From Mermis nigrescens (lineage: Eukaryota; Nematoda; Enoplea; Mermithida; Mermithidae): a DNA stretch of 64,000 nt. Location of the stretch: positions 2,117,259 to 2,181,258 of the forward strand of contig JAVLUZ010000142.1 in NCBI GenBank assembly GCA_036768485.1, written 5' to 3'. Positions 21,470 to 64,000 of the stretch are shown here, piece by piece; position 1 is the stretch's first letter, and the number at the start of each line of letters is the position of its first letter. The position numbers and the translations under genes are program-made. The notes under the pieces are model-generated. The model ran no database searches. It was not told the origin of the DNA and saw only the letters and a list, made by a program, of their open reading frames with translations.

Positions 21470-21477
21470 GTGACCAT

Positions 21478-22227: not shown

Positions 22228-22235
22228 ATCAAGTT

Positions 22236-23384: not shown

Positions 23385-23468
23385 ATTGCTATTGCTATTC
23401 ACTGCATAGATTGTAGTGCGTACAGATTTTTGGATCGCAAGATAATTTCAGGGATATGGGTCCACCAG

Positions 23469-23717
23469 CATACGTGGGCAGCAAGAAAATTCTCGGGAGG
23501 GGTGCATGATTTTTCAAAGGTCAAAAAAATTGCCTTAAAAACGGTGATATGGCGAAAAAACACCATTTTTCGACGTTTCTCATCGAGCACTATCCATTGG
23601 CATCAAAAAAATTGTGAAAAAAACAAAAATTTGAAATTGAATTCTGGGGGTATTTTGGTTTCTCGGGGGGGGGGTGCATACCCCCTCTCCAACCCCCATC
23701 TCCCACGCCCAGATGTG
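23469..23717 (+). mobile_element. M1 MITE copy
   Basis: Starts catacgtgggcagc and ends cacgcccagatgtg. The flanks tccaccag and gtcaccag match at 6 of 8. Confidence 0.7.
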
Positions 23718-28362: not shown

Positions 28363-29145
28363 TGTAAATACATGAGTGCCCTATGTATACGGGATCAACA
28401 TAGGACACGGATGTATTTGCCTTCGAGAGTTACTTACGTACGTAGGTACTTAAGTCTACGCTTAGCGCTGGTCCAGATCGCGCAGCCTGGGATCGCTTTC
28501 GATCTTTGGACCCTTACAGACCCTACGGCTTCGATCCCCTCAGCCCTAATATTGCTGGCTGCTTCTGGTCGGGTGATCTCAGCAGCTACGCCCTAGGACC
28601 TAAGGCTACTTACCTAGTCTCGAATTTGCCGCGGAGGTCAGTTGACCTATCTCAAAGCTCAAGTTGAATATTTAACTTCTTTTCAAGGTTCGATTCTAAC
28701 ATAAATGTTTTTGGTTCCTAATACGTGTAGCACAATAAACTTTGGAAACAACAACATTGAGCTCTACACTGATCAATCATCCCTAAGATTAAATAATATT
28801 TTTGATTAATTTTAGGTTTGAGGAAAGAATTAAGACTTTCAAATAAAAATAGCAATCATACGGAAATTACCTATCCTTCCACTCTGATGAGCTGAAATCC
28901 TCGACATGGGCAATTACCGACCTCGGTATATCCAAAGACTCCTGGGTAGGTTTTTCTCTAATTTATTTCGAACGAAGAATCCACGGCCTGTAGCCGGACA
29001 ACCAAATAAAGCAAAAGAAAAACGAAAACGTACGGACTATACACACGTACGGGTGGCCAACAAGACTGCCAACAACACTAACTACATTGGCCTCAAGAGA
29101 CCATTACAGTGAAATAAACAAAGATCAAATTAACGTAATACTGAT
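28363..29145 (-). repeat. 3' LTR of copy A, first part
   Basis: Begins tgtaaatacatg. It is co-linear with 43239-44030 and interrupted after taacgtaatactgat (29131-29145) by the PLE pair. Confidence 0.88.
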
Positions 29146-29284
29146 CATGAAGGAATAGTTTTGAAAAATGAGCTTGCTAAGCGAGAGTTGTAAACTAAGA
29201 GGAACTTAAAGTTTAAACCTACCATTAAATTATAAAGATAATAATGAAAGATTTAAAGCTTTAAGAAAAGAAAAATGTGGTAAA

Positions 29285-29702
29285 TCAAAACAAATTTAAA
29301 GGATATGATGAAACATTATTGTTGAGAATAGGACGATCACATGCTATATATAATGACTCCTTGATTAAAAGATCAAAAGAGTTGGATGCTAGACTGATAA
29401 CCTTTAAGCAATCTGATGTAATTGGATGATTGCTATTTGAGATATGTTTGTGAATAGCAGATAAACTATCACCCTGAATTGGCTTTCCTGTAGCAAATGA
29501 GATGCCAGTATGCTCTGCCATTCCACTCCCAAAATGTCGGCGAGTTTCACCGATGTAACTAGCCATACAGCTAGAACACGTATACTTATATACTAAATTT
29601 GAGAGTAGCTTAGCAGGTACAGCATCCTGGTTCTTGAAAAACCGGCTGATACACATAACAGGTTTGTAAACAAACCTTACTCTAATCTGAGGGTAAAATG
29701 CA
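29285..29702 (-). pseudogene. PLE GIY-YIG endonuclease domain, left arm
   Basis: The minus-strand frame carries KLLSNLVYKYTCSSC, then ASYIGETRRHFGS, then MAEHTG, ending SSYPLNLF and stop. The Tyr-Lys-Tyr...Cys-x-x-Cys...Tyr-Ile-Gly-Glu-Thr...His pattern is the C-terminal GIY-YIG-type nuclease of Penelope elements, which nicks the target for priming. The frame is open here, but everything upstream is missing and the MITE interrupts it, so it cannot act alone. One residue differs from the right arm (Gly for Arg before MAEH). Confidence 0.75.
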
Positions 29703-29710
29703 GATATAAC

Positions 29711-29989
29711 CATAGGTGGGCAGCACCGAAATTCTGGGGGGGGGTGAAAAAATTTCTGGGGGGGGGGTGAAAAATTTTTAAAGGTCAAAAAATGGTCTTA
29801 AAAGTGGTCGTATGTCAAAAAACACCATTTTTCGACGTTTCTCATCAAGCTCTATCCAATGGCATCAAAAAATTGCTGAAAAAGCAAAAAAAAAATTTTT
29901 CTGGGGGGGGGGGGTATTTTGATTTCTGGGGGGGTATTTCAACTTCTGGGGGGTGTATACCCCCCAAACCCCCCCCACGCCCATGTGTG
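29711..29989 (+). mobile_element. M1 MITE inside the left PLE arm
   Basis: Starts cataggtgggcagcacc and ends cacgcccatgtgtg. The octamer gatataac lies on both sides (29703-29710 and 29990-29997) but occurs once in the uninterrupted right arm, so the empty site is visible in the same window. Confidence 0.88.
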
Positions 29990-30103
29990 GATATAACCTT
30001 TAGAATTCTGCTGCGTACATTGTAGCCATGCACACCAGTGTAAGGCAAAACAAGAGAATAGCATAGTTTATCACACACAAATTTTATGTCAAATTTGGGT
30101 GTG

Positions 30104-30604
30104 ATAAACTATGCTATTCTCTTTGTTTTGCCTTACACTGGTGTGCATGGCTACAATGTACGCAGCAGAATTCTAAAGGTTATATCTGCATTTTACCCTC
30201 AGATTAGAGTAAGGTTTGTTTACAAACCTGTTATGTGTATCAGCCGGTTTTTCAAGAACAAGGATGCTGTACCTGCTAAGCTACTCTCAAATTTAGTATA
30301 TAAGTATACGTGTTCTAGCTGTATGGCTAGTTACATCGGTGAAACTCGCCGACATTTTGGGAGTAGAATGGCAGAGCATACTGGCATCTCATTTGCTACA
30401 GGAAAGCCAATTCAGGGTGATAGTTTATCTGCTATTCACAAACATATCTGAAATAGCAATCATCCAATTACATCAGATTGCTTCAAGGTTATCAGTCGAG
30501 CATCCAACTCTTTTGATCTTTTAATCAAGGAGTCATTATACATAGCATGTGATCGTCCTATTCTCAACAATAATGTTTCATCATATCCTTTAAATTTGTT
30601 TTAA
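30104..30604 (+). pseudogene. PLE GIY-YIG endonuclease domain, right arm
   Basis: The plus-strand counterpart of the left-arm gene: KLLSNLVYKYTCSSC and ASYIGETRRHFGSRMAEHTG. An in-frame TGA at 30449-30451 (after AIHKHI) cuts the frame at a point where the left arm reads through. The upstream part, starting near the palindrome centre, retains residues such as PYTGVHGYNVRSRILKVI, part of the linker before the nuclease. No reverse transcriptase is present. Confidence 0.75.
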
Positions 30605-30743
30605 TTTACCACATTTTTCTTTTTCTTAAAGCTTAAAATCTTTTATTATTATCTTTATAATTTAATGGTAGGTTTAAACTTTAAGTTCCTCTTAGTTTAC
30701 AACTCTCGCTTAGCAAGCTCATTTTTCATAACGTAATACTGAT

Positions 30744-31000
30744 ACACTTTTATCTCAGATCGAATATTCTCGATTACTACAAGCGGTATGCATTAAACAA
30801 TTACTATTATCATACACTTGACTCTATGTTACCGGACAAGTATCTTATTGTTTTTTATTATTGAAAATTGGGGAAAAGTGGGAAGACCGAAGGCATAGCC
30901 CACAGTACAATATCGTAGATAGCTACTAGTATTGGCTATGTGATGGCTACCGCGAACTGCTAAGGCAAGTTCGCCTATATGTGTAACTCTCGCAGTTACA
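30744..31000 (-). repeat. 3' LTR of copy A, second part
   Basis: Continues the LTR after the PLE insertion and ends cgcagttaca. Co-linear with 44031-44294. Confidence 0.88.
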
Positions 31001-31680: not shown

Positions 31681-33489
31681 TCAGGACGAAAAACGAAAAA
31701 TGGTGAAAAAGCTGCTGGTCGAATTTGACGCCGTTCGCGGAGTTCCAAAAAAGTTCTGTACATTGAACTTGTGAATTAATATTGATCCTGATAATAGGCC
31801 TTTGAGCCACGCTGGTTTTCCGCGACGTCGTTGACATTGAAAATAATCACGATCCGATTCAGGTTCGCGACGCGTATTCGAACGCTCGCGATACTGGTAT
31901 GGCAATTGCCTACGCCCGTACATATGTTGGCGTAAGCGTTGATGTGGATCAACTGGACGATTGTCGTCCTCAAAGTCATCGTTGTCCTCGTAGTTGTCCA
32001 CGTAACGACGCGGTATAGATTGCGCTGGAGTGAATAATTGCTCCGGAGTAAAACCAAAAGTTTGTTCACGTGAAGTTTTGCGTGGACGCTGTTGTGATTG
32101 CGTAACAGGCCACAGTTTTGGCAATACTGGACCTGGTCAAGGTTGTGGTTGGTAGACCCGGTGGTGATTGATCTTGTTCCAATGTGAACAATACGATTGA
32201 TCCCATTGTTGTTGTTGGCGGGATTGTGACCGGTCCTGATGAGTTCCGCGGTTCAAGTGTGGCAGTCGGCAATATTCATAAGGCTGCTGCTGTCGCGGGC
32301 GCAACAGATGACCAGCATTGGCCTGTGAATATGCCTCGGAACGCTGACGCGATTCTGTAAATTGCTATTGCGGCGGTTGGGTCTGCGGTCGTGTATGTTG
32401 CTGTATATGTGGTTTTACTGGTGCCTGTGATTGTACTTGTGATTGTGAGCGATGATGCATTTGAGCATAATGTTGCCGGTATGATTGTGGTTCTTGCCGC
32501 TTAGATCCTCTTTGGCTTAAACGTGCTCGTAATTTAGCTGTGACTTCAGCTTGAACAAGTCTTCTGACTCGTTGCTTTTCTAAATTCTTTAACCGACGCA
32601 AGGTATGCTCGGATTTTGTATCATAAAATCGATTCAATTTAGCCTTATGTTCATCTTCCGACATATGATGAACTTCTGAGCTTTCAGCAAGAGAACCGGT
32701 GGCGCGTAATTTTGTCGCACGCCTTGGCATCTCTGAAGCCAGATTTTCACAATCGCGTTGTTCAATTGTCATGCGTGCTCTGCGCATTTCGATTTGTGCC
32801 TCCAGAGATAGATCGACTTTGGGCATATCAAGGCTTGCTAAGGATCCACTTGGGTCCTGCAAGGATGCCTGCCGTCTCTCTTTTTGAACTTTCTCTAACT
32901 CGCCTTGAATTCGGTGTTTAAGGTAAAACACAGATTTTTGGCGACCTCGGAAGTCAAATTGAACCGGAACTTCAAGTGGCGGATTGGTTGCTAACCAAAT
33001 TTGACGAATCATGTTAAGTAAAACGTTTGGACTTTTGATTCGCCTCGTTAACTCCGGGAATCCCGGGAAGGCCTCTCTTGGCAAAGGTGTGTAAGATTTG
33101 CCAAGGAAAACTACGCGCAACATACGACGTAGCTGCTCCACCATGCGCCAGCCTATCGCGGCATTGCCGTAGGCATACGCATAAAAGTGGAACTTTCTGT
33201 CCAAAAATTCCAATAGCACTCTAGCGTGCATGACGTCTATTGTGGAGAAGATTGTCATGAGTTGATACTCCGAATCATATAACGATTGAAACTCTCGGAA
33301 GGTATCAAAAATATCAACCATTTGACGCGTCGATATTAAGACTGGCGCTAATTGATCTGGCGCTGGTGACATTCTGTGCGGTAAAAATTCTGGAAGAATC
33401 TGGTGCGCAACGCCATCAGTCACCACACTCGGTGCGTCGAGGTGTGGATGGACTACCAGGTACTGTAAAGGAACTTCGTACAGCATCAT
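31681..33489 (-). pseudogene. ORF5 of copy A: conserved retrotransposon accessory protein of unknown function
   Basis: Starts at tandem ATGs (33489-33484), the first overlapping the ORF4 stop as ATGA. About 600 codons in one frame, broken by TAG 32367-32365 and TGA 32139-32137. The first 220 residues look globular (QMVDIFDTFREF; GWRMVEQLRRMLR; SYTPLPREAFPGFPEL). A coiled-coil-like acidic/basic helix region follows (LSLEAQIEMRRARM), then a long Arg/Gln/His-rich tail. The same blocks recur in copy B (QMVDIF/LMVDIF; GWRMVEQ/AWRMCEQ; PREAFPGFPEL/PREAFVEFPEL; LSLEAQIEMRRARM/LSLQAQIDLRQARM). There is no signal peptide or membrane segment, so it is not envelope-like. No family is recognised. The basic tail suggests nucleic-acid binding (inference). 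Confidence 0.7.
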
Positions 33490-33815
33490 TCCGGTTGTAA
33501 TGAAAAACCGGGTGTGCACAAAAATTGGTCAGGGTAAAATAATCGGTTAAAAACGCTCATTTTGCTGATAAATTGAGGTGCCGGCGCACGATCGACATCA
33601 GCTAAAGGTTGTGCGATTGTAGACCAAACTAAAGGACGCAAGGGTGTGTCAGTCGTAGCCGCGTAATGCAGATGTGCTGCGTACACCCGGTCAAAGTGCA
33701 CTTGGGCGCACTCGACCAACTGGTCGTACAGACGCGTTCCTGCGACTTCACCCAGATAAGAGCGTAACTCGTGCAATACGTCAGGCGCAATATAGCACGG
33801 TGCTTCACGCGTCAT
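33486..33815 (-). CDS. ORF4 of copy A: about 110-residue conserved segment
   Basis: Starts ATG 33815, three bases after the TAG ending ORF3 and in the same frame; ends TGA 33488-33486. Key pieces are LYDQLVECAQVHFDRVYAA, TPLRPLVWS and APQFISKMSVFN, matched in copy B by LYTDLRTDIQLCYNSMYA, PERPIIPL and APRFIMQPSVFH. No known fold is recognised. Because it shares ORF3's frame here, it may be the last domain of ORF3 cut off by one stop, or a separate reinitiated ORF. Copy B also shows a frame change at this border. Confidence 0.6.
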   Translation of the reverse strand: MTREAPCYIAPDVLHELRSYLGEVAGTRLYDQLVECAQVHFDRVYAAHLHYAATTDTPLRPLVWSTIAQPLADVDRAPAPQFISKMSVFNRLFYPDQFLCTPGFSLQPE

Positions 33816-33818: not shown

Positions 33819-35926
33819 CTACATCATGTTGAAAAAATGTTGCACATAACGCGAGCAATTTTGAACTCTCGCGTTCTCTTCTGCGGATACGCGTTCGCAT
33901 ATGGCTTGAATATGCGCAGGTACTGCGACTTCTAAATTCGACGGTGGATTTTGAATAACCTGTGGTTGAATATTCGCCACGGTATTTGACACTCCCGTCA
34001 TGGCCATAGGAGCCGTAAAATGAGTAGTAGGTGCCACTGAAGTCGACACGCCTTGTGGCGCGGAGTGGGACGCGATTTGCGTGGACAACGCTGCTTGCTG
34101 TACTTCCTGTGCAGGTAGAGAGCGTTGAGGTGGCGGTGGGAAGCCTATAATTTCTGTCATGATAACGTCGGGTTCAGGTTGACGCTCTACCCAATCCAAC
34201 TGAGAAGTCGGTAAAAGTAGGAGCGAACTGAAGCCCAAGGGTGCCTGCTGGTCTGCCACAAGCGATTGTGAAACAATCGGTTGCGAAACGGTAGTAGCCC
34301 CTTTTCGAGCCATTGCCGCGCGTGTGGTACGCGGTGGCAACAAGTTTGCTTGCCTTTTGGCCTCAGCGTCGGATAACACCATGACTAAATGTTTAGGAGA
34401 CAAATCGTCGTGTTCTGCGGACACAGATTGTTCAATTCCAACCATAGGAGAATTGTAAGGAATATCAGTTTGTGAAGAAATCACAGAAGCTGGGGTACTT
34501 GAGCTGGTTGGTTTGGACTTAGGTTCGGTATCAGGCGCATGAACCGGGCCCAAAACTGAGTCGGCAACGGCCTGCAATCCCTGAACTTTTAGATCAGGAT
34601 TATCAAAAACATTAGTATGAGCCAACACTTCCATTACAGAGGCAATGGTGGTGGCTGCAGCTATGGCCGCTGGTGGTTGCGGAGCTGGTCCGTAAAAGTC
34701 CTCTACTGTGACTAACGCTCCGCCATCAGAATCAATGGAGACATCAGTCGCCGTACTGGTTGACTGGCCCCGTGATGGCTTGCGAGATGACAATGGTATA
34801 CGCTGTCTGGTTTTCGGTTCGCTAGCTTTAACGTGTGATTCGTTGCCTTTAAATGAAATTGGCATAGGTTTTCTATCCTCGGTAATGCGATTATTTTGCG
34901 AGCAGCCTTCTATCAATATGAAAACATTGATAATTATCAGGGCATTCATCGCTAAATAATGTTGCATATCCCGAGTTAGTGGTAAACTCCACGCCTGTCC
35001 AAAATTATCAGGCGCGTTGGGATCAATAGCCATGTCAAAGAAAAATTCAGCCAAGCGCTTTAAAGTATGTGAATGCGCTGTAATATGGAGATGGCGAGTG
35101 AACAATCTCGCCAAAGGCTGAATATTGATAAAATTTGCACTAAACGGATCTTTCCAATGCCGTTGATTTCGAATCTCGGCATCAGGAATTGCCGAAATTT
35201 CTTCAAAAGTTGAGCCGTAAACATGAAAATACGCAAGTTTGTCTTGCGTAGGGTCGTAACAGACCATATATACGTTTGGTAGACGCGTTTCAAGCAGCTG
35301 ATGAAGCCCAAACGGAGGTTTTGGGAACTTAGCAATGTCCCAGCAGAACACATGACTGTTCGCGCTAGCAATTTGGACATAGCGAACAAATGGGCCATGG
35401 AGGTCCTCATAGGTGGGACATAGCTGCTTAAAACGCAAATCCCAGGTCTTATAAGTTCTGCCTTTTCTGTCATTCACAAATTCCGAATCGTAGCCTAAGA
35501 ATAAGGTGCCATTTGTCATGTTTGATGGCTGGATCAAAGCCAAAACAGCCTCAAAAGACTCCTGGTCATTGGTGATTAAAACAGTGGATAGATAGTCTCT
35601 TCTTTGGCACACGTAGGGCAGCCAAAGGGAATCTATCAAACCTGTTCTCCCACCAGAGCTCTTGGTCATTTATACGTTTACTGTGATTTGTGGCTACATG
35701 TGATGTTTTATGCTCTATCATTTTTGCAGTAAGTGCTTCTAGACCGCCAACACGACTGTCATCATTTTGTGGCAGCGGGTCTGGAAGAACCAACCCCCGC
35801 TCCAAAGCCATATTAGTCAAAGCCGAACAAAACTCATCTAGGGACGCGGGATCACGCCCTCAAATTTGAATCGGCGACCAGCTGCTTCCAGCAATGCCTC
35901 CTCGTTGGGGTACCTTCAGCAGCCAT
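33819..35926 (-). pseudogene. ORF3 of copy A: DEDDy-type 3'-5' exonuclease plus disordered tail
   Basis: Proposed start ATG 35926-35924 overlaps the end of pol in another frame, as in copy B. Frameshifts at about 35860-35690 interrupt the first 80 codons. From 35669 the frame is open for 616 codons. Exonuclease features, numbered from 35669: Exo I GYDSEF (Asp61, Glu63); VFCWDIAKFPKPPFG; Exo II CYDPTQD (Asp143); Exo III region LKRLAEFFF, then WSLPLTRDMQHYLAMNAL, where the usual Tyr-x3-Asp reads Tyr238-x3-Asn242. This order matches RNase D/WRN-like exonucleases. Residues 270-590 are Pro/Ser/Thr/Gln-rich. Loss of the last acidic residue suggests copy A's enzyme would be crippled. Cellular role unknown. 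Confidence 0.78.
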
Positions 35927-36343
35927 GGGTCTGCAAAAGGGAAAACATTAGATAATGGTACGGCATGTGCTGTTTTAGAGCCATTTAATAAACGTATAGG
36001 CGCGCAGTCCTTAGCTTTTTGTTCCCTGCCCGGTAAATCCTCAAAACTTATGACTACTGCCGGGGCGAGAGGGCGATGTGGTAATTTTACCAAAACAAAA
36101 TCGCCAGGGACATACACATGCTTTTCTACAATTAAATCTGAGTACGGTAATTTGGGCTCAGGCAGAAGTCTATTCCGGTGAACGAGATGAGTGATCAGAG
36201 GATTATAGACATATGCGATTTTCGCAGTTTCAGGAGTAGGTAAATCAATAATTCTATATGGACCAACACGTTTGGGTGATAGTTTACCGATTTCAGGTTG
36301 AATTACTGAGGTATTATTAAGGTAAACTATATCCGAGAGAGAA
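35860..36343 (-). CDS. Pol C-terminus of copy A: integrase GPY/F module and PWWP-like domain
   Basis: One frame from about 36343 to TGA 35860. It carries IGKLSPKRVGPYRI (GPY/F module, typical of Ty3/gypsy integrase tails), NPLITHLVHRNRLLP, then VYVPGDFVLVKLPHRPLAPA, ...APIRLLNGSKTAHAVPLSN, VFPFADP. Gly-Asp-x-Val-x-x-Lys, a Pro-x-x-Pro pair before Ala-Val-Val, and a closing Val-Pro-Leu-Ser-x-x-x-Pro-Phe follow the PWWP beta-barrel pattern. Copy B has the same module. Chromoviral integrases carry chromodomains here to steer insertion, so a chromatin-reader role is the natural inference. A one-base frame change near 36350 separates it from the integrase core. Confidence 0.7.
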
Positions 36344-38513
36344 AAATTTGTTTGATTACTGACTTATTATATTGAGATTTTTGCTGCTTACGCGCTTGAG
36401 CTAAGTTTTGAGACGCGATTTCGTGTAGATCTTGTAAAGTCAGCTTTAAGTCAATGACATATTTTTCCGCAACAGATGGTAAATTTGGATTCATCACAAA
36501 GTCATTTATGAGTAGAGTGTCAAGGGGAAATGCTGGTTCGCGACCATAAAGCATTTCAAAAGGAGATATATTAATTGATGATTGTGGAGTCGCGCGGTAT
36601 GCAAATAAAGCAAAAGGTAGAAATTGCTCCCAATCATACTTAGATCGCGCACTCAGCTTAGACAAACCATCAATCAAAGTGCGATTATAACGTTCCACCA
36701 ACCCATCACACTGGGGGTGAAATGGGGTTGTAAATATTTTTTGAACGTTTAATAGTTTACAAACTTCAGAAATAAGGGTAGATGTAAAGTTTGACCCCTG
36801 ATCTGTCAAAATTTTCTTGGGAACTCCATAACATGGTATAATTTCTCTTAGTAATAAATTTGCGATTGTTGTTGCTTTTATGTCAGAAACAGCGAAAGCT
36901 TCCACGTATTTGGTAAAATAATCCATAAAAACTAGAATTTGGTCATTTCCGGAGGGAGATCGCGGCATATGCAAACAATCACACGCAATAAGTTCAATGG
37001 GCGTGGATACTTCAATTGGTTGCAGTGGAACGGATGTGGAATTTAATGCGACCTTACGTTGTAAGCACACATCACAATTCCTACACCACGCGATCACATC
37101 ATTTTCCATGCGCGGCCACCAATAACGCATTTGTATGGCGGGCAAGATTTTGCGCGATGAAAAATGAGCTCCGAAAATAGAGTCATGAAATTCGGTTAAT
37201 ATAAAGCGACGCAAAGATTTGGGTATGACTATTTGATGTACGACAGTTGGTGAACGTTTAGGTTGGAATCTACAAAAAAGAACATCGTTTACGAGAAAAA
37301 ATTCGTCACAATATTTTTTCGTTGTTAAATCATTTAATGCGATGCGAATTTTATGTAATTTGTCATCTGCACGTTGCTCAGTGAGTAAACGCGCAGGTGT
37401 TAGCATTTCAGCTTTTTCAGCATCGGTAAGTAATAGGCGTTCACAAAATGTAGGTGGTTTTGTATTGGTAGGATCGATTTGCGCAGTAGGATTATTATTT
37501 TGCGCATTTGGATGATTAATTGGTGCAGTAGGCGCATTATCGCGCAATCGGTCAGGTGGAACCGATTCATCATCTGACTCAGAATCTTCCGATTCTAAAT
37601 TTGCGATGTTAACGACATTTTTGCGTTCAAGTTTATATTTTCGTTCTGCATGATTGTATTTAGGGTGTCGTGAAAGAAGATCAGCTGCGCAGTTATATGC
37701 ACCAGGAACATAAACGATATCATATTCATATTCTTGTAATTTGAGACCCCAACGGCGTAAACGACTCGATGGGTCTTTAACGTTTACAAGCCACGTTAAT
37801 GCTTGATGATCAGTTTTGACGATGAATTTTTTACCGTAAAGATAATGTCGATAATGCTTGATGGCCCACACTACCGCTAACGCTTCTTTTTCCGAAGTAG
37901 CATAGTTACATTTGGCAGAATTTAGCACGCGACTAGCGTAGCTAAGAATAAAACGATTTTTGGATGGTAAATGTTTTTGTGTCAAAATAGCACCTAACGC
38001 GTAATTACTCGCGTCAGTTGTTAAAATAAATTGGTGCTCATCGTCAAATTTTGGTAATTGCAAAATAGGTGGGGATGTAAATGCTTTCTTCAGAAGCTCA
38101 AAGGCGGTTTGGTGTTCAGCCTTCCAGCAAAATTCGACATCTTTACAAAGAAGATGGAATAACGTTTTAGCGATTTTAGCAAGATCTTTAACTAATTTTT
38201 TAAACCATTGGACTAAGCCAAGGAATTTTTGCAAAGATTTAACGGTTTTTGGTACGGGAAACGAGATTAAATCTGCGACTTTGGACATATCAGGAGCGAT
38301 GCCCATTGCACTTATGTTGTGGCCAAGAAATTTTACCTCTGCATGCGCAAGATGGCATTTATCAGGCTTTACACGTAAGTTTGCTTTTTTAAGAGCAAGA
38401 AAGACATTCTCAAGATCTTTTAAATGTTCTTTGAAAGTGCGTGAAAAAATAATTATGTCATCGATGTAAACGAGACAAGATTTCCAATTTAGACCTGCGA
38501 GCACGAGCTCCAT
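36327..38513 (-). CDS. pol: Pol of copy A: RT C-terminal half, RNase H and integrase
   Basis: A 728-codon open frame. The RT active site YIDDI is at residues 16-20. RNase H: TTDASNYALGA (Asp167), SEKEAL (Glu210), KTDHQA (Asp235), AADLLSR (Asp278). An acidic/Asn-rich linker spans about 300-350. Integrase zinc finger: His443, His450, Cys480, Cys483. Integrase core: ACDCLH (Asp512), LTDQGSNF (Asp571), GLVERYNR (Glu607), the D,D35E triad. All catalytic residues are present. The N-terminal part of RT lies in the preceding frame, separated by one extra A near 38505. Ty3/gypsy assignment follows from the RT-RNase H-integrase order. Confidence 0.93.
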   Translation of the reverse strand: MELVLAGLNWKSCLVYIDDIIIFSRTFKEHLKDLENVFLALKKANLRVKPDKCHLAHAEVKFLGHNISAMGIAPDMSKVADLISFPVPKTVKSLQKFLGLVQWFKKLVKDLAKIAKTLFHLLCKDVEFCWKAEHQTAFELLKKAFTSPPILQLPKFDDEHQFILTTDASNYALGAILTQKHLPSKNRFILSYASRVLNSAKCNYATSEKEALAVVWAIKHYRHYLYGKKFIVKTDHQALTWLVNVKDPSSRLRRWGLKLQEYEYDIVYVPGAYNCAADLLSRHPKYNHAERKYKLERKNVVNIANLESEDSESDDESVPPDRLRDNAPTAPINHPNAQNNNPTAQIDPTNTKPPTFCERLLLTDAEKAEMLTPARLLTEQRADDKLHKIRIALNDLTTKKYCDEFFLVNDVLFCRFQPKRSPTVVHQIVIPKSLRRFILTEFHDSIFGAHFSSRKILPAIQMRYWWPRMENDVIAWCRNCDVCLQRKVALNSTSVPLQPIEVSTPIELIACDCLHMPRSPSGNDQILVFMDYFTKYVEAFAVSDIKATTIANLLLREIIPCYGVPKKILTDQGSNFTSTLISEVCKLLNVQKIFTTPFHPQCDGLVERYNRTLIDGLSKLSARSKYDWEQFLPFALFAYRATPQSSINISPFEMLYGREPAFPLDTLLINDFVMNPNLPSVAEKYVIDLKLTLQDLHEIASQNLAQARKQQKSQYNKSVIKQIFLSRI

Positions 38514-40350
38514 TTAGTCTTTGAAAATCTGCGGGCGCATTTTTTAAACCAAAAGGTAAAACTTCAAATTCGTAATGACCAACAGGACATATGAATGCAG
38601 TTTTTTCGCGAGATTTATTATCGAGTGGAATTTGCCAGTATCCAGATTTTAAATCTAGTGTGCTAAAATATGCGGCATTGCCTAAGGTATCAAAATAATT
38701 GTCTAATTGTGGAAGAGGATAAACTTGCGTTTTAGTAACGTCATTTAACCGTCGATAATCGACGACCGGCCTAAGGGAACCGTCCTTTTTTCCAATGAGA
38801 AATAATGGACTTGCCCATGGGCTGGTTGTAGGTCGAATAATTTTATCCGCTAGCATTTCATTTATAATTTTCTGCATAGATTCTCTTCTAGAATGTTCAA
38901 CACGATAAGTTTTTCCAACAATGGGCGGATTATCCCCTGTGTCAATATGATGTTTCATCAAGGGGGTACGTCCGAGAGGTTCGTTTTTTAATGCAAAAAT
39001 TGAGTCGTATTTTAAACATAGTTCACGAATTTGTTGCTGTTGTCTAGAATCAACGGCGGAGCCGTTTAAAGCTTTATTTATTGATGCAAAAAGTTCTGGT
39101 GTCCTATCATCAAAAGATGAAACATGTGACACAACTTCGGCATCAGAGGTTAAAGAACCTATTATTTCACCAGAGTCAATGCGAATTGGCGCTTTAGAGA
39201 TGTTACAAACGCGAACAGGTATTAAAGGTTGTGAAGCATCGACTATAGACAGAGCAACAAAAAGTGAAGTTCTTTCCATAAAATCGGGATTTGGTTCAAA
39301 TAATGCGAAATCAAAATTGCAAGAACCGTGACTTATATAGCCAGGTGTAATTAATTCATGCCTAGGTTGTATAATAACAGGCTCAGGTAACGAAACATGC
39401 ACACACACAACACCAGAGGTAGTTGTGTTGGGTTTTGTGCGAAATTGCAATTTTTCATGAGATGAGAGTAAATTAACCTTTATGCCGTTTATAAAAGCAC
39501 AGCGCTCAATAGGATTAACCCACATGAGTGCGGATTCGCAAAAATCATATCCTAAGAGCATGTCTTCCGGCAAATGATCAATTATAGCTACTGAGGTAGA
39601 AATAGATTGTTCCGCGATAGTTAAAGTCATATTTACTTTATAACGAACTACAGCGGTGATTTCGCCTACACCATGTACGACTTGTGAGACTTGTTTAGGT
39701 GGTAAATTAAAACCAAGACGTAAGAATGCAGACGTGGTCATCATGGTGACCTGTGAACCCGTATCTATGAGAGCAGGTACATCAACGCCGTGAACTTTAA
39801 CAAGAATGGTGGGTAAATTTGTCCCAGCATGGCTTACAATAGGAATATTAGGATCTAAAGTCTTAGATGGAGGTAGATTGATTTTTTCATAAGTTGCGAG
39901 ACGACGTTGTAAACGTTCGTACTCTTCGAGAAATTCTTGCGACGCGAATAGATTGGGACGCACGCTAGATTCTGGCCCTTTCGCAGTAACCGTGTTTACA
40001 TCATGAGGAGATGTAAGGGTTGGCTGCGGTGGGGGCACATTCATGGTGGGTTGGTTATCCGCAGTGTATGTGACATAAGGGCGATTAAAATTGTTGTCGC
40101 TGCGGTAATTTGAATTATAGTATGTACCACGCTGTTCATTTGGGAATTGCACAAAAGGTGTATTTTGTCGCAATTGATTATTATAACGATTATTGTAACG
40201 CGAATTTTGATAATTAGCACGCGAATTTTGGTAATAATCATTACGATTTTGCCTAAAATTTGATCGTGTTTGCTTAGAATCAAAACGATTATCATTATTT
40301 GCATAGTTAGATGAACGATGTTGACTAGAGTTACGATATCGTGATTGAGA
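38458..40350 (-). CDS. pol: Gag-pol of copy A: protease and N-terminal half of RT
   Basis: Same frame as gag, open from just after TGA 40353-40351 (a methionine at 40173 is internal, not a real start). An Asn/Arg/Tyr-rich linker leads to aspartic protease PALIDTGSQVTMM with MLLGYDF downstream, then RT motifs: WASPLFLIGKKDGSLRPVVD, YRRLND, YFSTLDLKSGYWQIPL, FEVLPFGLKNAPADFQRL. The frame leaves RT at about 38505 and stops at 38458. Correct RT continues in the next frame, so this is one broken polyprotein. Confidence 0.92.
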   Translation of the reverse strand, partial: SQSRYRNSSQHRSSNYANNDNRFDSKQTRSNFRQNRNDYYQNSRANYQNSRYNNRYNNQLRQNTPFVQFPNEQRGTYYNSNYRSDNNFNRPYVTYTADNQPTMNVPPPQPTLTSPHDVNTVTAKGPESSVRPNLFASQEFLEEYERLQRRLATYEKINLPPSKTLDPNIPIVSHAGTNLPTILVKVHGVDVPALIDTGSQVTMMTTSAFLRLGFNLPPKQVSQVVHGVGEITAVVRYKVNMTLTIAEQSISTSVAIIDHLPEDMLLGYDFCESALMWVNPIERCAFINGIKVNLLSSHEKLQFRTKPNTTTSGVVCVHVSLPEPVIIQPRHELITPGYISHGSCNFDFALFEPNPDFMERTSLFVALSIVDASQPLIPVRVCNISKAPIRIDSGEIIGSLTSDAEVVSHVSSFDDRTPELFASINKALNGSAVDSRQQQQIRELCLKYDSIFALKNEPLGRTPLMKHHIDTGDNPPIVGKTYRVEHSRRESMQKIINEMLADKIIRPTTSPWASPLFLIGKKDGSLRPVVDYRRLNDVTKTQVYPLPQLDNYFDTLGNAAYFSTLDLKSGYWQIPLDNKSREKTAFICPVGHYEFEVLPFGLKNAPADFQRLNGARARRSKLEILSRLHR

Positions 40351-40446: not shown

Positions 40447-42655
40447 TCAATCAGGTTGGGTATTATGATTAGCATTATTAGACGCTTCTTGTCTCTGATG
40501 CATGAAACATTCCTCATAGATATGACCTATGCGCTTGCAAAAGGTACAATATTTACGAGAGGAACTTTCTGGTTTCTCAGCACGCGACGAGCGATGAAAC
40601 GTTCTATGACGCGAACGATTTGAATCATTTTGGTTAGATGCGTGAGGAGTATCTTTAGGTACTGCGCTGCCTACGGGAGCAGCTGTTACCGATACATAAG
40701 GTGTTACTGCCTTTTTATCCTCAAATTCTTTATTAGCAAATTCAGCGCTTAGCGCATTGTCCAAAAATTCAGCCAATGATGCTCTAGGCTTTTTATGATA
40801 TGCCTCTTTCGAAATGTGTGGTAATAAACCTTCTTTTAATTGATGTCGCATCAAATTATTGAAATGATGCGAGTCAACTTCTAGATAAGGATCAGATTTA
40901 ATTAGCTCTTCGCGAAGCGAGAGATAATAAGCTTTAACCGATTTGTTAGGCTGCTGTTTATGATTCAAAAAACGATTAAAGAGCGCACCGGTGTCCATTG
41001 GACAAAATTCGGTTATTAGCGCTTGTTTCATTTTCGAATAAGATTGTTGTATATCAGCAGGTAACGAACGGTATAAACGCATAGCATAGGGATCAAGAAA
41101 TCCAGTTGCGAATTTTAAACGATCAGCTTTGTCGATATCATAGGTATCGGCAAGCGATTCAAATTCTGCAAAATATGCTTTTATATCCGTTTTATCTCCA
41201 TCAAAAAATTTTTTGTTAGCAATTGCAATTTGCATTTGTGTTAAAAATGGTCCGCAATTCAAGGAATCAGCGAGACGCGATCCACCACGCGAGCCTTCAG
41301 ATGAAGAATCTGAACTATAGCGGTGACGTCGTCTGCGCGATCTACTTTTGCGACGCGAGCGACGACTGCGCGGGCGATCATAGCTATTAGATGAGCTTTC
41401 ATCAGAAAATTTAACATGTCTTCTCCTACTAGATGATTCAGGTAGAGGTGCAGATTCATTTTGCAAATTTGCAGATTCATTGTTAATACCAGATAGATTT
41501 ATCTCAACAGGTTGCATCTCGATATTAGAAGAATGCAAAATAGGATTATTAGGTGGTATTTCCACATTCACAGGATTAGGTACATAATTATTTGGAAAAA
41601 TTTCGCCTTGAGGTGGAAAATATTGCAGCGGTGGTGGATTTAACTGCTGCTGCGAGTTCGCATTCAAAGAATTAGGTACGAAGGAAGGCGCATTACGATT
41701 TAAAGACAGCGGCGGCTGAGATCGCGACGTCTGCAAAATCGGTACCGACGGCTGCGAAATCGTAGGTATATTTTCCGAAAAACCCGAGTTTTGCACTGGT
41801 TGCAAACCCGTGTTTAAAGGATTCTGTGACAAATTAGATATCTCAGGCGCGCGATTTGTACAATTTTGAGACGATATTTTCAGGAATAGTTTCCGAAGGT
41901 GAGCGTGAATTTGATACGCTGTTGCCAGTGGACAACAGTGAAGATGCACGATGCGTACTTTGCGCACGATTCACACTTTGCGCATTAAATTCAGAAAAAT
42001 TTGCGCTATCGATTGAGTGGTTAACACGCTCAGATGGATTACTCTCTATGCGATTCGAAACTGGTTGGGGTTTAAGCATAGTGCTTAGCTCCAAACGCAG
42101 TTTACGCATTTCATCCGCATTTTCCTTTTTATCTTGATCAACGCGCGTAGAAAGGTCCAAAAATTGCAAATGAATAGCTTGTAGCGCTTTTAAAATAAGA
42201 TCATTAGTCACATTAGCATTAGCACGCTCTTCGTCGGCATTTATGCTATGACTATGATTACTTTCTACATCAGAATCGGGATTTTCGCGCTCCGAACTGG
42301 TTTCAGGATTATTTGCCGTGTTAAGAGTAGTCGTATTATCAATCATTGTATGATTAGATGAATTGTCAATGTTAGGGTCCGATCTAGTTATCGAAGTTTG
42401 ATTAATGCGCGATCACATGGTACTCAATAACAGTTCATCTTCAGACTGTGTATTGCTCGCGGCATTTAGTGACGCGGGTAATTTATCATTACTCGCCTTA
42501 CTAGTTACGTCTTTCGTATTTGTGTCATTACTCGCAGAATTACTCGCGCTATTAGAGTCAACAGGCGCGGTGGGTAATTGGCGAGATGAAGTAGGTGGCA
42601 TAGAAGGTTTTTTCAATTTAGCGGGCGGTGTCCGCAAAACCTTTTTTCCTGCCAT
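40447..42655 (-). pseudogene. gag: Gag of copy A (capsid and zinc knuckle), broken
   Basis: ATG at 42655 (MAGKKVLRTPPAK). An in-frame TGA at 42415-42413 and a one-base frame change near 41870 interrupt it; it ends at TGA 40449-40447 in the same frame as pol. The C-terminal 506-codon part (from 41967) has an Arg/Ser-rich stretch (SRRSRRKSRSRRRRHR), a capsid-like region (FFDGDKTDIKAYFAEFESL; LPADIQQSYSKMKQALITEF) and a CCHC knuckle YCTFCKRIGHIYEEC. A second Arg/Ser-rich run follows past the stop, with another TGA at 40353-40351. Gag assembles the virus-like particle and binds element RNA. Confidence 0.88.
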
Positions 42656-43238: not shown

Positions 43239-44294
43239 TGTAAATACATGGGCTGCCCTATGTATACAGGAATCAACATAGGACAGGGATGTATTTGCCT
43301 TCGAGAGTTACTTAGGTACGTAGGTACTTAAGTCTACGCTTAGCGCTGGTCCCGATCGCGCAGCCTGGGATCGCTTTCGATCTTTGGACCCTTACAGACC
43401 CTACGGCTTTGATCCCCTCAGCCCTAATATTGCTGGCTGCTTCTGGTCGGGTGATCTCAGCAGCTATGCCCTAAGACCTAAGGCTACTTACCTAATCTCG
43501 GAATTTGCCGCAGAGGTCAGTTGACCTATCTCAAAGCTCAAGTTGAATATTTAACTTCTTTTCTAAGGTTCGATGTCTGATCATGAAATGTTTTTGGTTC
43601 CTAATACGTGTAGCACAATAAACTTTGAAAACAACAACATTGAGCTCTACACTGATCAATCATCCCTAAAGATTAAATAATATTTTTGATCAATTTTAGG
43701 TTTGAGGAAAGAATTAAGACTTTCAAATAAAACTAAGCAATCATACGGAAATTACCTATCCTTCCACTCTGATGAGTTGAAATCCTCGACGTGGGCAATT
43801 ACCGACCTAACCCTCGGTATATCCAAAAACCCCTGGGTAGGTTTTTCTCTAATTTATTTCGAACGAAGAATCCACGGCCTGTAGCCGGACAACCAAATAA
43901 AGCAAAAAGAAAAACGAAAACGTACGGACTATACACACGTACGGTGGCCAACAAGACTGCCAACAACACTAACTACACTGGCCTCAAGAGACCATTACAG
44001 TAAAATAAACAAAGATCAAATTAACGTAATACTGATACACTTTTATCTCAGATCGAATATTCTCGATTACTACAAGCGGTATGCATTAAACAATTACTAT
44101 TATCATACACTTAACTCTATGTTACCGGACAAGTATCTTATTGTTTTTTATTATTGAAAATTGGGGAAAAAGTGGGAAGACCGAAGGCATAGCCCACAGT
44201 ACACTATCGTAGATAGCTACGAGTATTGGCTATGTGATGGCTACCGCGAACTGCTAAGGCAAGTTCGCCTATACGTGTAACTCTCGCAGTTACA
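43239..44294 (-). repeat. 5' LTR of copy A
   Basis: 1056 bp, tgtaaatacatg to cgcagttaca. On the minus strand AATAATAAAAAAC (about 44145) could supply a poly(A) signal. Uninterrupted, so it is the reference for the other LTRs. Confidence 0.9.
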
Positions 44295-58896: not shown

Positions 58897-60702
58897 TCAA
58901 CGGCGTTTATGGTCGGGTTTCGACGTCGGAAAGAAACCAGACGATCGAATCGAGCAACGCAACGAGTCACTCGAGTCCGTAGAGCGACGATTTGACGGGC
59001 GATCCTCATCCAATAAATTTATGCACGGTTGCATGCGTTCGCGCAAGCTACGATGTTCGTCGTACGAAACGGCATCGGGCGATGGTGCTTCGAATCCATA
59101 ATAAACTCGTGGTTGACTAGACGGAGTAGCCGGACGGCGGAACTCCTCGAACCTTTGATCACGGCGCGGTGGAGAAGGAAAGCGCCCAAAACTGCCGGAT
59201 TCATGCGAAGGAGAGCGCGAATGGTATGGTTGTGGTTGTGGTTGACCCCAAAACTCATTTGACCGGGAGATTGAACGGCGTTCGTGTTGCGGCCGATCGA
59301 GACTAACGGTTGACTGCGGCGACCAACGCGTTGGTGATGGGCGACGCCCAACGCCTTCGCGTTGACGCTGTGGCGAACGCTGCTGCGACGATTCAAATTG
59401 CCGCTGTTGATAACCGCCAACGTTGTCAGCCGACCGCTGCAACCAATGCGTCGGTAATGAGCCACGCCCAAAACCTTCGTGTTGATGCAACAGCGACCTT
59501 TGGCGCTGCACTGCTCGCGGCGGCGGGGTTGAACGCGGCCGGTGTTGCTGCGTTGGCCGCTGCTGCAATTGCTCACGCGGCGTTGACGCTGCCGGTAACT
59601 GGGGCAAATTCTGTCTGAAACGAGACAAAGAAGAGGGTCCGGGTTCGTTTTCAGATGGCTTCGATAATAACGCCACTTGGCGATAGATCATCACTTGCCT
59701 TTCGCGTCGCTCTCGTCGTTTTTGATTGGCACGCATAGCTCGTTGAGTATGTTCATATTTATTCCGGATGTATCAGCTGGCCTTTAATAAAGGAATGGCT
59801 TCGTGATAGGATCGTAAGCGTTCCATGTACGCGTTCTCATCCTCACGTCTTATTTCAGAGGCCACGGCTAAAGAGCCTGGCTTACGTGCAACAGTAACGC
59901 GTGGCAATGGCGGCATCGGTTGAGTTTCACGATCGGCTTTCTCAATTATCATTCGGGCCTGGCGTAAGTCGATCTGAGCCTGTAAGGAAAGATCTGAAAC
60001 GTTTTGTCGTTTCTTCGCTTGGGGGCCACTTGGGTCCTCCGCATCAGCGAGTCATTTGTGCGATTGGTGTCTCTGCTGGTTTTGACAAATATTGTTCAAT
60101 TCGTCAGGCAGTTTTTTCAGAAGATAATGCGTAGAGTGTTGGCGCGATTTGTGACGACCAAATTGAGCAGGCACCGTTAAGTCAGGATCTGTGGCTTTGC
60201 GAATTAGCTGAATATCGCAATGTAGCACAACCGGATCCTCAATTTCTTCCGCTAACTCAGGAAATTCTACAAAGGCTTCCCTCGGAAATTGAGTATACGT
60301 CGGACCAAAGAAGGCGGCACGAAGCATCCGTTGAATCTGTTCACACATTCGCCAGGCAATTCCAGGATCGCCATACAACGTCGCGAAAATGAAGAAACGT
60401 TGATCTAAATAGTGCAACAGTGATGTAGCTTGCAACACGTGCGCAGTAGCGAACACCGGTTCGCGGCTGAAAGTGGTTTCGTATCCTCTCTCGAATTCAC
60501 GGAACGCTTTGAAAATATCAACCATTAGCCGCATCGTCAAACACAACGGCGCCATATGATCAGGCTGAGGCTGGATACGATGGGGAAAGAACTCAGGCCG
60601 AATTGTGACACCGAGTCAAATGTTCATTTGCGGCAGCGTCGGCTGAAAAGAATGGTTTGCGACGTATTGGATGTTTACTTCGTAGACCATATAACCAGTC
60701 AT
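58897..60702 (-). pseudogene. ORF5 of copy B: accessory protein homologous to copy A ORF5
   Basis: ATG at 60702-60700 overlaps the ORF4 stop (TGA 60701-60699) as ATGA. One frame of about 600 codons, interrupted by TGAs at 60618-60616, 60054-60052 and 59775-59773. N-terminal blocks are MVYEVNIQYV, FFPHRIQPQPDHMAP, LMVDIFKAFREFE, AWRMCEQIQRMLR and PREAFVEFPEL. A middle block is DLSLQAQIDLRQARMIIEK. The last 270 codons are Arg/Gln/Ser/Pro-rich. Block order, length and tail type equal copy A despite strong divergence, so the protein is a real conserved product. No transmembrane segment; function unknown. Confidence 0.72.
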
Positions 60703-61037
60703 GATAAAATGCGATTTTGCGTAAACAACGGATCTAGATAGAACTGGCAGTGAAAGACAGAGGGCTGCATAATAAAACGCGGCGCAACCCAATTCCTAAA
60801 TGCCTCTTCTGGATCCGGATCCGTGGGCAAGCATAGCGGAATGATTGGCCTCTCCGGCGGATTAGAGATTCGACAATACTGCAAATAACGGGCGTACATC
60901 GAGTTGTAACACAGTTGAATGTCAGTACGCAAATCTGTGTACAGTTCCAAACCTGCTTCTGGTCCAAGCCAATCGCCAAAATTGAGAAAATTATGGATAG
61001 ACAGGCAAGGTTGACCTGTTTCCTGCAATTCTTGCAT
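60699..61037 (-). CDS. ORF4 of copy B
   Basis: 112 codons from ATG 61037 to TGA 60699. LGPEAGLELYTDL, NSMYARYLQYCRISNPPERP, NWVAPRFIMQPSVFHCQFYL align with copy A ORF4. ORF3's frame continues to TAA at about 60990, overlapping this start by some 48 bases. Whether this is a separate cistron or the displaced C-terminal domain of ORF3 is unresolved. The ATGA junction to ORF5 is preserved. Confidence 0.62.
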   Translation of the reverse strand: MQELQETGQPCLSIHNFLNFGDWLGPEAGLELYTDLRTDIQLCYNSMYARYLQYCRISNPPERPIIPLCLPTDPDPEEAFRNWVAPRFIMQPSVFHCQFYLDPLFTQNRILS

Positions 61038-63059
61038 GGTTTCCTGAAAATAATTCTGCGTAAGCGGTTGTTTGCCGTTGTTCCTCGTTATCCTGCACCT
61101 GAATTGGCTGTTCAGCCGGAGTTAGGACAACTGGTTCCGTCGGTTGTGGCTGCGTAATTCAAGGAATACGCGTCAACGGCAAAGGCTCGGCGGCAAAAGG
61201 CAACGTCATTGAGGCCATGATATTTTGGATATCCGTCGGCGCCGAGTAAGCAGGCGGAGGAGGAGCCACTGAAGCTGGAACAGCTTGTAAGGGCTCAAAA
61301 CGCGATTTTCGAGTACGTGCCGGTTGAGAGACCAAAGGCAAATTTTCGACATCCAGGGGCCGACCTAACGGGGCGCTGGTTGCGGCCACAACTGGAACCC
61401 TATCTAAAACGTTTGTATCCATTGGTTCAGGCACATTACGCGATGTGGAAGGCAAATTAGCAATAATACCATTGAGAACTTGTTGCTGCATCGGCGATGG
61501 CGAACGCTGCGACGGCGGCGGAAATGGCGGCCTACCCTGGTCATCTAACTCATAGCCATCTAAAATAATCATCGTCGGATCCTCGCCGTCCGAATCAGCT
61601 GTCAATGATCTGCGGAAATGTCATCGTATGGCTTTTCGCCTTTGTTTCATATTGGGCGGTAATTTCGACAGCTTGATGTATAACAGCTCCGGCGGCGGCG
61701 CCGCCTGGACGGAACGTTCGTCACCCTCAAAAGTAAAACCTGGCGGAACACGATGAGGAGAAATTCGACTCATGTTTGGCGAATACATATCGATAAGAAT
61801 GTAGACATCGAGTGAGAAAATCGGGTCTAAAACGAGATACCGTAACATAGGACCCGTCAAAGGCATGTTCCATGCCTGGCCAATCCACGTGACCACACCT
61901 GGGCGTGGGGGGGGGTTTGGGGGTATGCACCCCCAGAAACCAAAATACCCCCCAGAAATCAAAATACCCCCCAGAATTCAATTTTTGAAAATTTTTTTCG
62001 TTTTTTTCGCAATTTTTTGATGCCAATGGATAGTGCTTGACGAGAAACGTCGAAAAATGGTGTTTTTATCGCCATACCACCATTTTTAAGGCCATTTTTC
62101 GACCTTCAAAAAAATCTTGCACCTCCCCCCAGAATTTTCTTGCTGCCCACGTATGCACGTGACTGCCGAAGAATCCGGCTGCATATCGAAGAAGAAAGCT
62201 GCCAACGTTTTTAGGCGATGATTTCTGGCATCGATACGATGTTTGACCATGAAAAAGCGGCTCATCACCAGCGTATCTAAAATATTGGCCCTGAAAACCA
62301 AACGCGGTGGAGGAAAGCTATCACGATTTTGTAAATAGGCCACTACATCTGCGCAATGTGGGCCGTAGACGTGAAAATAGGCAATCTTATCATTACTAGG
62401 ATTGTGGCAGGCTAGAAAAACATCTCGCAGCTGTGTCTCAAGCAACTCCGCCAGCCCAAACGGGGGCTGTGGAAACCTAGAAATATCCCAAACAAAAACA
62501 TGGCCACGAACATCGGCGATCTGAATGTATCAAACAAAAGGACCGTTGGCCTGCATGTAGTTGGGATCGAGTTGTTGCCAATATCGTTCCCAAACGCGGT
62601 AGGGCATGAACAAACGGTCGTTAACATTCTCGGAGTCAAAGCCAAAAAAGTACTGGCTGTTCAGACGATTAGACGACCTGAAAAGTGTTCGTATCGCGTT
62701 ATAAGACTGTTCGTGTGTTTTGACCATTACGGTATGTCGAATGGCGTTTTTGGGCACATATGGCGCTGACAACGGGATACGGTCCATTGTTGCCAGCCAC
62801 CACTTATGTTGGGCATAGATACAATCGTAGTGGTGTGGCGTTTTGTGGTGTGATGGTTTGCAAAGATTGGGAGTCACGTGTTCGTCGTTTTGCAGTAAAG
62901 CATCTGTAAAGGGACTACGTCTGCGCGATACTGCTTTGCAGCAGCCGCAGCTTCGAGCGCTATGAGGAAATGGGCGGCATCGTTGTCGTTCCCGAGGCTA
63001 AACGTCGGACAAACTCGGTCCACGACGTCCTCTTCTGTTGGGGCACGCTGCTCAGCCAT
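60990..63059 (-). pseudogene. ORF3 of copy B: DEDDy-type 3'-5' exonuclease with intact acidic residues, MITE-interrupted
   Basis: ATG 63059 (MAEQRAPTEEDVVDRV) overlaps the pol end by about 100 bases in the same relative frame as in copy A. A frame change lies near 62890. From 62877: Exo I FFGFDSEN (Asp at 62637, Glu two codons on); Exo II CHNPSNDK (Asp at about 62391); Exo III WNMPLTGPMLRYLVLD, keeping Tyr-x3-Asp (Asp at about 61827). Between Exo II and Exo III an M1 MITE (61894-62155) interrupts the gene. Stops: TGA 62532-62530 (copy A has Arg), 61623-61621, 61161-61159. The tail is Pro/Ala/Gln-rich as in copy A. The four acidic residues plus Tyr of the DEDDy class are all readable. Confidence 0.78.
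61894..62155 (-). mobile_element. M1 MITE in the copy B exonuclease gene, TSD cacgtgac
   Basis: Starts cacacctgggcgtggggggg and ends gctgcccacgtatg. Octamer cacgtgac lies on both sides (61886-61893 and 62156-62163). Insert plus TSD is a multiple of three, so the exonuclease frame resumes in phase after it, although the MITE contains stops. Confidence 0.9.
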
Positions 63060-64000
63060 GGCTCTGCAAAAGGTGTAACGTTAGTTAAGGGCACGGCATG
63101 TGCCGATTTAGCACCAATTAACAAACGAACAGGCGCACACTCCCTCCTATTCCTTTCCCGGCCCGCTAATTCCTCAAAAGTTATAACTAGTGCCGGACAC
63201 ACAGGTCGACGCGGTAGCTTAACTAAAACAAAATCACCGGGTACATATGCGTACTTTTCGGCAATGAGATCGGAATAGGGCTACTTTGGGGCAGGTAAGA
63301 GGCGATTACGGTGCACTACATGTTTGATTAAAGGATTATGCAAATAGATGATGCGCGCAGTTTCAGGCGTTGGCAAGGCTTTGATGCGATATGGACCTAA
63401 TTGTTTAGGTGAAAGTTTTCCAATTTCAGGCTGAATTACTGCTTTATAGTTGAGATATACAATATTGTCAACTGCAAATTTACTTTCAGCGCGTTGTTTC
63501 GTCATACTGCTTTTTCTGATGGTTACGCGCTTTAGCAAGATTTTTGCTAGTGATGTCATGTAGGTTAAGAAGCGTAAGTTTCAGATCAGCAAGATATTTT
63601 TCAGCGATGTTAGGCAGATTAGGATTCAACGCGAGATCGCTTAAAAGCTGTATATCGAGTGGAAAAGAAGGTTCACGACCGTACAGCATCTCAAATGGCG
63701 AAATATTTGTAGATGACTGCGGCGTTGCGCGATACGCGAATAAAGCAAAAGGCAAAAATTGTTCCCAATCGTATTGATTTCTCGCGCTTAGTTTAGAAAG
63801 TCCATCGATGAGTGTTCGATTATACCGTTCAACTAACCCATCACACTGAGGATGATAAGGGGTTGTGAAAACTTTTTGAACGCTTAGTAATTTGCAAACT
63901 TCGGAAATTAGCGCTGATGTGAAATTTGAGCCTTGATCAGTTAAAAATTGCTTTGGAACGCCGTGTCTAGGAATTACTTCGCGCAATAATAGGTTTGCTA
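62960..64000 (-). pseudogene. pol: Pol of copy B (integrase core to PWWP-like domain; 5' part beyond the window)
   Basis: From the window edge: FLTDQGSNF and GLVERYNRTLIDGLSKL (second Asp and Glu of the integrase triad), EMLYGREPSFPLD; about 80% identical to copy A by eye. A one-base frame change near 63495 leads to IGKLSPKQLGPYRI (GPY/F module) and HVVHRNRLLPAPK, then TAG 63283-63281. In the same frame YVPGDFVLVKLPRRPVCPA, APVRLLIGAKSAHAVPLTN and TPFAEPW form the PWWP-like domain, ending at 62960. Confidence 0.88.

Follow-up and report, generated by a model that had tools for sequence, protein, structure and literature searches.

A predicted DEDDy exonuclease domain in the third open reading frame of a Ty3-type retrotransposon lineage from Mermis nigrescens

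A lineage of large Ty3-type long terminal repeat (LTR) retrotransposons in the nematode Mermis nigrescens appears to carry an exonuclease of its own. The window, the whole 64,000-nucleotide stretch of DNA analyzed here (assembly GCA_036768485.1, contig JAVLUZ010000142.1, positions 2,117,259 to 2,181,258 of the forward strand), contains two copies of elements with this domain, A and its distant relative B. Judging from sequence, we give a probability of roughly 0.9 to the reading that the feature is the N-terminal DEDDy exonuclease domain of open reading frame 3 (ORF3), an accessory gene of the lineage. An earlier note on this DNA had placed an exonuclease ORF in the env slot, and the frame in A does lie there, between pol and the 3' LTR. 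The identification relies on homologous ORFs in other Ty3 families of the same genome, on 43 unique genomic copies of the domain, and on the selection acting on them.

Exonuclease domains of copies A and B

The open frame of copy A runs for 616 codons (33819..35669; coordinates of genes, domains, sites, and LTRs refer throughout to the minus strand) and comprises the predicted DEDDy 3'-5' exonuclease domain, at residues 50-255 (34905..35522), and a low-complexity tail. Its motifs are DSE for Exo I, CYDPTQDKLAYF for Exo II, and the Exo III block QAWSLPLTRDMQHYLAMN. In copy B, the domain spans 61717..62787 and is read in three pieces (62787-62533, 62529-62164, and 61881-61717); one stop and a repeat insertion of about 270 bp break the frame, and B consequently has no single exonuclease ORF. 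The exonucleases match in two stretches, with amino acid identities of 42% (the main stretch) and 34%, and the integrases are 78% identical over 170 codons. Copy B, truncated at the window edge, has integrase, exonuclease, and ORF4/ORF5 in A's order. We note that a dispersed repeat of about 200-260 bp with G/C runs occurs at 18500-23700, 29700-29990, 49790-50040, 54360-54570, and 61890-62160, and that one copy of it interrupts the exonuclease of B.

Searched singly, the A and B exonucleases match nothing significantly in Pfam, among PDB sequences, or among 5.8 billion proteins; A and B combined likewise lack a significant match in the latter two collections. PDB sequence searches with A, with A+B, and with a 16-member alignment of genomic copies (A5) returned only a few weak, unrelated matches. 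IMG/VR, searched with the exonucleases of A and of a divergent locus, L074, held no relative, and fold predictions for the A and B pieces were too poor in quality to use.

Link to known enzymes through other Ty3 families

The connection to known enzymes comes from the window's own genome. Specifically, a search of that genome with PF01612 gave 22 matches above the curated cut-off; 7 of 14 control genomes also give matches. Twelve of the 22 were fetched as loci. Six of these (four nonredundant: L071/L072, L077, L078, and L079/L080) have integrase upstream in the fetched flank, the L079 match being short and weak (E 2.5e-5). The flanks fetched for L070 and L074-L076 gave no integrase match, although a 2.1-kb stretch of L070 shares 99.7% identity with L071; L069 and L073 resemble separate host-type genes. 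PF01612 matches L071 with an E-value of 3.5e-10, L074 with 1.3e-8, L079 and L078 with 2.9e-7 each, and the broken L077 piece with 0.031, the matched stretches of these loci beginning downstream of Exo I.

Profile alignment (hhalign) joins the A and B families to L071, L074, L079, and L078 with a probability of 98.4; the alignment covers 232 columns at an E-value of 1.1e-14 and keeps the motifs in register. Every motif residue is kept in L071, L074, and L079; L078 has Lys in place of the Exo I Glu. The profile of these four members in turn finds the WRN exonuclease (2fbt) first among PDB sequences, at E 7.4e-12, and ranks NrnC, a mut-7 homolog, and EXD2 after it. Read from these alignments, the domain is homologous to DEDDy 3'-5' exonucleases of the WRN/RNase D/MUT-7 type (PF01612), as the earlier note had proposed for the frames behind pol in A and B, and several further Ty3 families of the same genome have homologs of it behind integrase. 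The host-type gene piece in L073 resembles the element ORFs (best E 1.6e-6) more closely than it does RNase D and thus hints, weakly, that the domain may have been captured from a eukaryotic gene.

An ordered-block test, in which A, B, and A+B were scored against an RNase D/NrnC profile with column shuffles as the control, points the same way. In A+B, all six blocks (DxE, the IQ strand, H-x4-D, IDT, the helix, and PLT-x5-Y-x3-D) are placed as expected, and none of 500 shuffles matched the score. Scores of A alone and of B alone were each matched by none of 300 shuffles, and A's score was reached by none of 302 overlapping windows (70 E. coli reading frames). Only the combination has six blocks in register: A alone misplaces blocks 1-2, and B alone blocks 1 and 4. 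The scores were 7.5 for A, -2.5 for B, and 1.2 for A+B, compared with -3.9 for E. coli PolA, a DEDDy enzyme absent from the profile, of which only the first block was correctly placed.

Genomic copies and selection

Profile and sequence searches covered the window's own 524-Mb genome, in which the window lies on contig C48. The A frame found at least 72 matches (71 of 2,625 first-look candidates scored), and the B piece at least 150, A-family copies included (150 of 1,220 candidates scored). Of 64 fetched loci (L005-L068), 13 lack a complete exonuclease domain in a single open frame and 51 have one; 43 of these 51 domains are unique. Across the 43 unique domains, 42 retain the Exo I Asp and all 43 the Glu, 34 the Exo II Asp, and 42 and 41 the Exo III Tyr and Asp, respectively. 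Integrase lies upstream of the exonuclease in all eight loci tested (L005-L012).

PF01612 is the sole recurrent Pfam match among A- and B-family members, always under the cut-off: it matches 8 of the 16 members of A5 (best E 0.008) and 4 of the 19 members of a second alignment, A6 (best E 0.0042), whose first member, of the B family, has no match. The two sets overlap, with seven A-family loci common to both. The DEDD exonuclease model of NCBIfam matches 1 of 16 members (E 0.0073).

Of 11 A-family pairs, the 8 that include neither L005 nor L031 have a ratio of nonsynonymous to synonymous substitution (dN/dS) of 0.05-0.12, and the other three have 0.13-0.39; in the B family, the ratio is 0.07-0.35 in eight of nine pairs and undefined in one. 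When A is compared with B, synonymous sites have reached saturation (proportion of differing sites 0.83 at synonymous and 0.37 at nonsynonymous positions). By these ratios, the exonuclease domain is under purifying selection. The contention that the ORF belongs to the element as a conserved component, and is not an isolated host insertion, is thus borne out by the genomic copies, the upstream integrase, the selection, and the other families.

A separate observation concerns the assembly. Contigs C48 and C64 each carry matches whose protein sequences have 100% identity to A (L005 and L006) and the B piece (L033 and L034), with a spacing of 28,342 bases on both contigs, indicating that the window region is duplicated or has been assembled twice.

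Points that weigh against the exonuclease assignment

Several results count against the assignment. Plain hhalign of A/B against RNase D is weak: its score was matched by 5 of 150 shuffles, and the reversed control reached 18.4 against a real 18.6. When 43 copies were used, the score was matched by 2 of 100 and 4 of 100 shuffles, and the reversed control again came near it. Moreover, the last catalytic residue of copy A is Asn instead of the Exo III Asp, and the Exo II Asp is replaced by Asn in 9 of the 43 unique domains, all of them B-family. The best hhalign alignment of A/B with RNase D/NrnC always falls in the same C-terminal register. The exonuclease identity is decided by the intermediate Ty3 families.

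The substitution in A qualifies a further claim, that copies A and B carry the Exo I, II, and III blocks. The blocks are present in both, and in A the set lacks the terminal Asp. Among the loci read, only A and its 100% identical twin L006 have Asn at this position, and copy A is, by this residue, probably inactive. G-to-A decay as the cause of the loss is unsupported, the changes private to A being of mixed types. In the B family, Asn stands at Exo II in 9 of 21 unique copies, among them a close cluster of L059, L060, and L062. Catalysis would therefore be dispensable in those copies, or be supplied in trans, or the copies would be passengers.

Layout and expression of ORF3

In intact copies such as L014-L018, ORF3 is one frame of about 1,390 codons that contains the exonuclease domain, the low-complexity tail, and the regions read in A as ORF4 and ORF5, the exonuclease being the N-terminal and first recognized domain. 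The gene had been taken to begin at 35669; the intact frame moves its start upstream, to an ATG that corresponds to 35926, the upper limit of the interval given in the earlier note. In A, this ATG (35924..35926) is not in continuous frame with the exonuclease.

ORF4 and ORF5 of copy A (32365..33815) have no meaningful Pfam match and are 32% and 38% identical, respectively, to their interrupted equivalents in B (58897..61121). Past the exonuclease, ORF3 consists of a conserved region and an Arg/Gln-rich tail (33815-32365 in A; the C-terminal part in L014). An overlap of the ORF4 stop with the ORF5 ATG in A and B was considered as coupled re-initiation and ruled out, since the two form one continuous frame in intact copies.

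A candidate 3' splice acceptor, TTTTCCCTTTTGCAG, lies inside the end of pol (35931..35945), and the ORF3 ATG of A follows it by 4 bases. In intact copies, the ATG likewise stands 4 bases downstream of TTTTTCCTTTTGCAG; site and ATG occur together in every one of the 28 A-family loci, copy A among them. The ORF3 ATG of copy B (63057..63059) follows a similar site, CACCTTTTGCAG. In the divergent locus L071, TTTCCTAG terminates exactly at the ATG, and in L074, an acceptor-like site lies 50-odd bases upstream of it; L079 and L078 have no acceptor-like site at the first ATG. The arrangement suggests that ORF3 is read from a spliced, env-like messenger RNA (mRNA) whose acceptor would sit in the last codons of pol. 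Acceptor-like sites are common, at 5-8 per locus, and for that reason we can only infer the splicing.

Function and alternative explanations

In copies with all acidic residues, the domain would remove nucleotides from 3' ends by two-metal catalysis. Our leading suggestion for its role, offered tentatively, is trimming of RNA 3' ends, either of the element's own RNA or of host silencing RNAs; trimming of cDNA or primer ends is our next guess.

An alternative is that the DEDD fold is kept and that the domain mainly binds RNA without cutting it, as has been proposed for Maelstrom and EXD1. The Exo II Asn copies described above speak for this idea, particularly as the pairs bearing them mostly have low dN/dS (L060-L057, 0.09; L041-L059, 0.11; L043-L059, 0.12); two such pairs are higher (L053-L058, 0.35; L041-L057, 0.30). 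The Exo I Glu is missing from L078, a member of a different Ty3 family, and the available text of a study of rotifer elements links inactive DEDD relatives to PIWI-interacting RNA (piRNA) biogenesis (PMC5408684). However, 34 of the 43 copies retain the Exo II Asp, 41 to 43 retain each of the other acidic residues, and, of the four ORFs from other Ty3 families, L071, L074, and L079 possess all motif residues in the alignment. We consider a mainly RNA-binding domain rather unlikely.

ORF3 could also be a virion or entry component that replaces env, with the exonuclease fold only an ancestral scaffold. It occupies the env slot in an env-like layout behind an acceptor-like site, and most of its roughly 1,390 codons belong to other regions, of which one is conserved. 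Crude hydropathy scanning of the A and B pieces gave 1.96 for a 19-residue stretch of A, over the usual threshold of 1.6, but this stretch corresponds to the Exo III helix, and none of the other seven pieces exceeds 1.32. Together with the conservation of the catalytic residues, this makes an entry component improbable. Finally, a host gene that happened to enter a single copy, or a motif match arising by chance, might account for the failure of A and B alone to find relatives in the databases, yet it is refuted by the many genomic copies with integrase upstream, by purifying selection, and by the homologous ORFs behind integrase in other Ty3 families, and we give it almost no credence.

The PWWP-like integrase tail

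Past the GPY/F motif, the C-terminus of integrase carries a PWWP-like domain in both A (35932..36105) and B (63062..63238). Both PF00855 matches are sub-threshold, with 17.8 bits (E=0.0047) in A and 15.5 bits (E 0.025) in B against a cut-off of 25.6. Related Ty3 families match the model more strongly, specifically L078 (3-971; 52.2 bits, E 8.9e-14) and L077 (192-1043; 34.9 bits, E 2.3e-8), and their domains contain GYPFWPAKV. An AlphaFold model of the A tail, at a pLDDT confidence score of 36, was too poor to use. Chromoviruses, the Ty3 elements with an integrase chromodomain, similarly place a chromatin-reader-type domain at the integrase C-terminus; the lineage of A instead has a PWWP-like one (PF00855). 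Human immunodeficiency virus (HIV) uses a PWWP reader borrowed from its host; should the PWWP domain of integrase be confirmed, these elements would have the equivalent built in. Going by titles and abstract openings, none of the papers listed in an open-licence literature search describes a Ty3 integrase with a PWWP domain.

Structure of element A and its neighborhood

Element A is, by its sequence features, a Ty3/gypsy LTR retrotransposon: it has LTRs, gag, a pol order of protease, reverse transcriptase, RNase H, and integrase, and a GPY/F motif recognized in the sequence. Its order is gag, pol, the exonuclease frame 35669-33819, further ORFs, and the 3' LTR, and it measures about 14.3 kb, a later insertion not counted. 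The 5' LTR (43239..44294), with TG...CA ends, forms a direct repeat with the 3' LTR (28363..31000), the limits being read from the sequence; LTR length is about 1,056 bp. Aligned over 1,069 columns, the pair shows 94.9% identity, 24 mismatches, and 30 gaps, and the ends of the element show no clear target-site duplication. The 3' LTR is split by an inverted-repeat insertion of about 1.58 kb at about 29146-30731. By eye, the twin ORFs of this insertion resemble the GIY-YIG endonuclease of a Penelope-like element; they have no Pfam match.

The gag ORFs occupy 40447..42412. The frame 41970-40447 matches Retrotrans_gag (E=5e-6), and the frame 42412-41843 has no match among the searches made. Pol (36327..40350) was identified by Pfam matches to protease, reverse transcriptase, RNase H, and integrase, and its frame is broken in copy A. 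Searches of Rfam at gathering thresholds and for tRNAs, and of IMG/VR with the A pol, found no relative. Elsewhere in the window, positions 1-1763 are the 5' end of a further related element, which shares 84% identity with 42535-44294 and is cut by the window edge.

Relation to known elements

The earlier note knew of no described Ty3/gypsy group with such a domain. That view is overtaken by Rodriguez, Kenefick, and Arkhipova (2017), whose available text describes ORF3s of the DEDDy type both in Athena/Terminon retroelements and in two sets of bdelloid LTR retrotransposons, Juno1/2 and Vesta2/5, reports spliced ORF3 messages, and proposes 3'-end processing and a role in silencing (PMC5408684). 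DEDDy ORF3s in LTR retrotransposons are mentioned again in the accessible portions of PMC6431247, PMC6338049, and PMC5718144. Juno1/2 and Vesta2/5 share with the lineage of A an ORF3 downstream of pol that encodes a DEDDy exonuclease similar to RNase D. According to the 2017 text, however, Juno and Vesta have a dUTPase between protease and reverse transcriptase and LTRs of 159-551 bp (PMC5408684), whereas A has no dUTPase match in Pfam at E<=10 in the pol stretch 38458-40350 and has longer LTRs. In A's lineage, the exonuclease is the first domain of a far-reaching ORF3 and accompanies a PWWP-like integrase tail, for which the available 2017 text has no mention in Juno or Vesta (PMC5408684). 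This comparison uses the published descriptions of Juno and Vesta.

Terminon/Athena Penelope-like elements of rotifers are also large retroelements with DEDDy exonuclease ORFs; unlike A, they are, in the accessible text, telomere-associated and non-LTR-bearing (PMC6431247). The cellular enzymes WRN, MUT-7, EXD2, NrnC, and RNase D (PF01612) share the Exo I, II, and III blocks in register; here, the domain is encoded by a retrotransposon, and its A/B branch falls under the Pfam cut-off. Exonuclease capture by LTR retrotransposons is thus already known, and the present lineage is a variant of it, given the lack of a detectable dUTPase, the long ORF3, and the PWWP-like integrase tail. The lineage, the gene layout, and the integrase tail look new.

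As a speculation that we regard as doubtful, these features may define a distinct clade of giant Ty3 elements in which an integrase-fused PWWP reader would direct integration to marked chromatin with no need of a host tether such as LEDGF, and a spliced polyprotein with a WRN/MUT-7-like exonuclease would trim host small RNAs, shielding the element from silencing. More firmly, exonuclease capture extends beyond the bdelloid element groups of 2017 to multi-copy Ty3 families of a 524-Mb genome. There, the domain is kept by selection, and dozens of natural copies exist with and without the Exo II Asp. The role of the enzyme for the retroelement is therefore directly testable.
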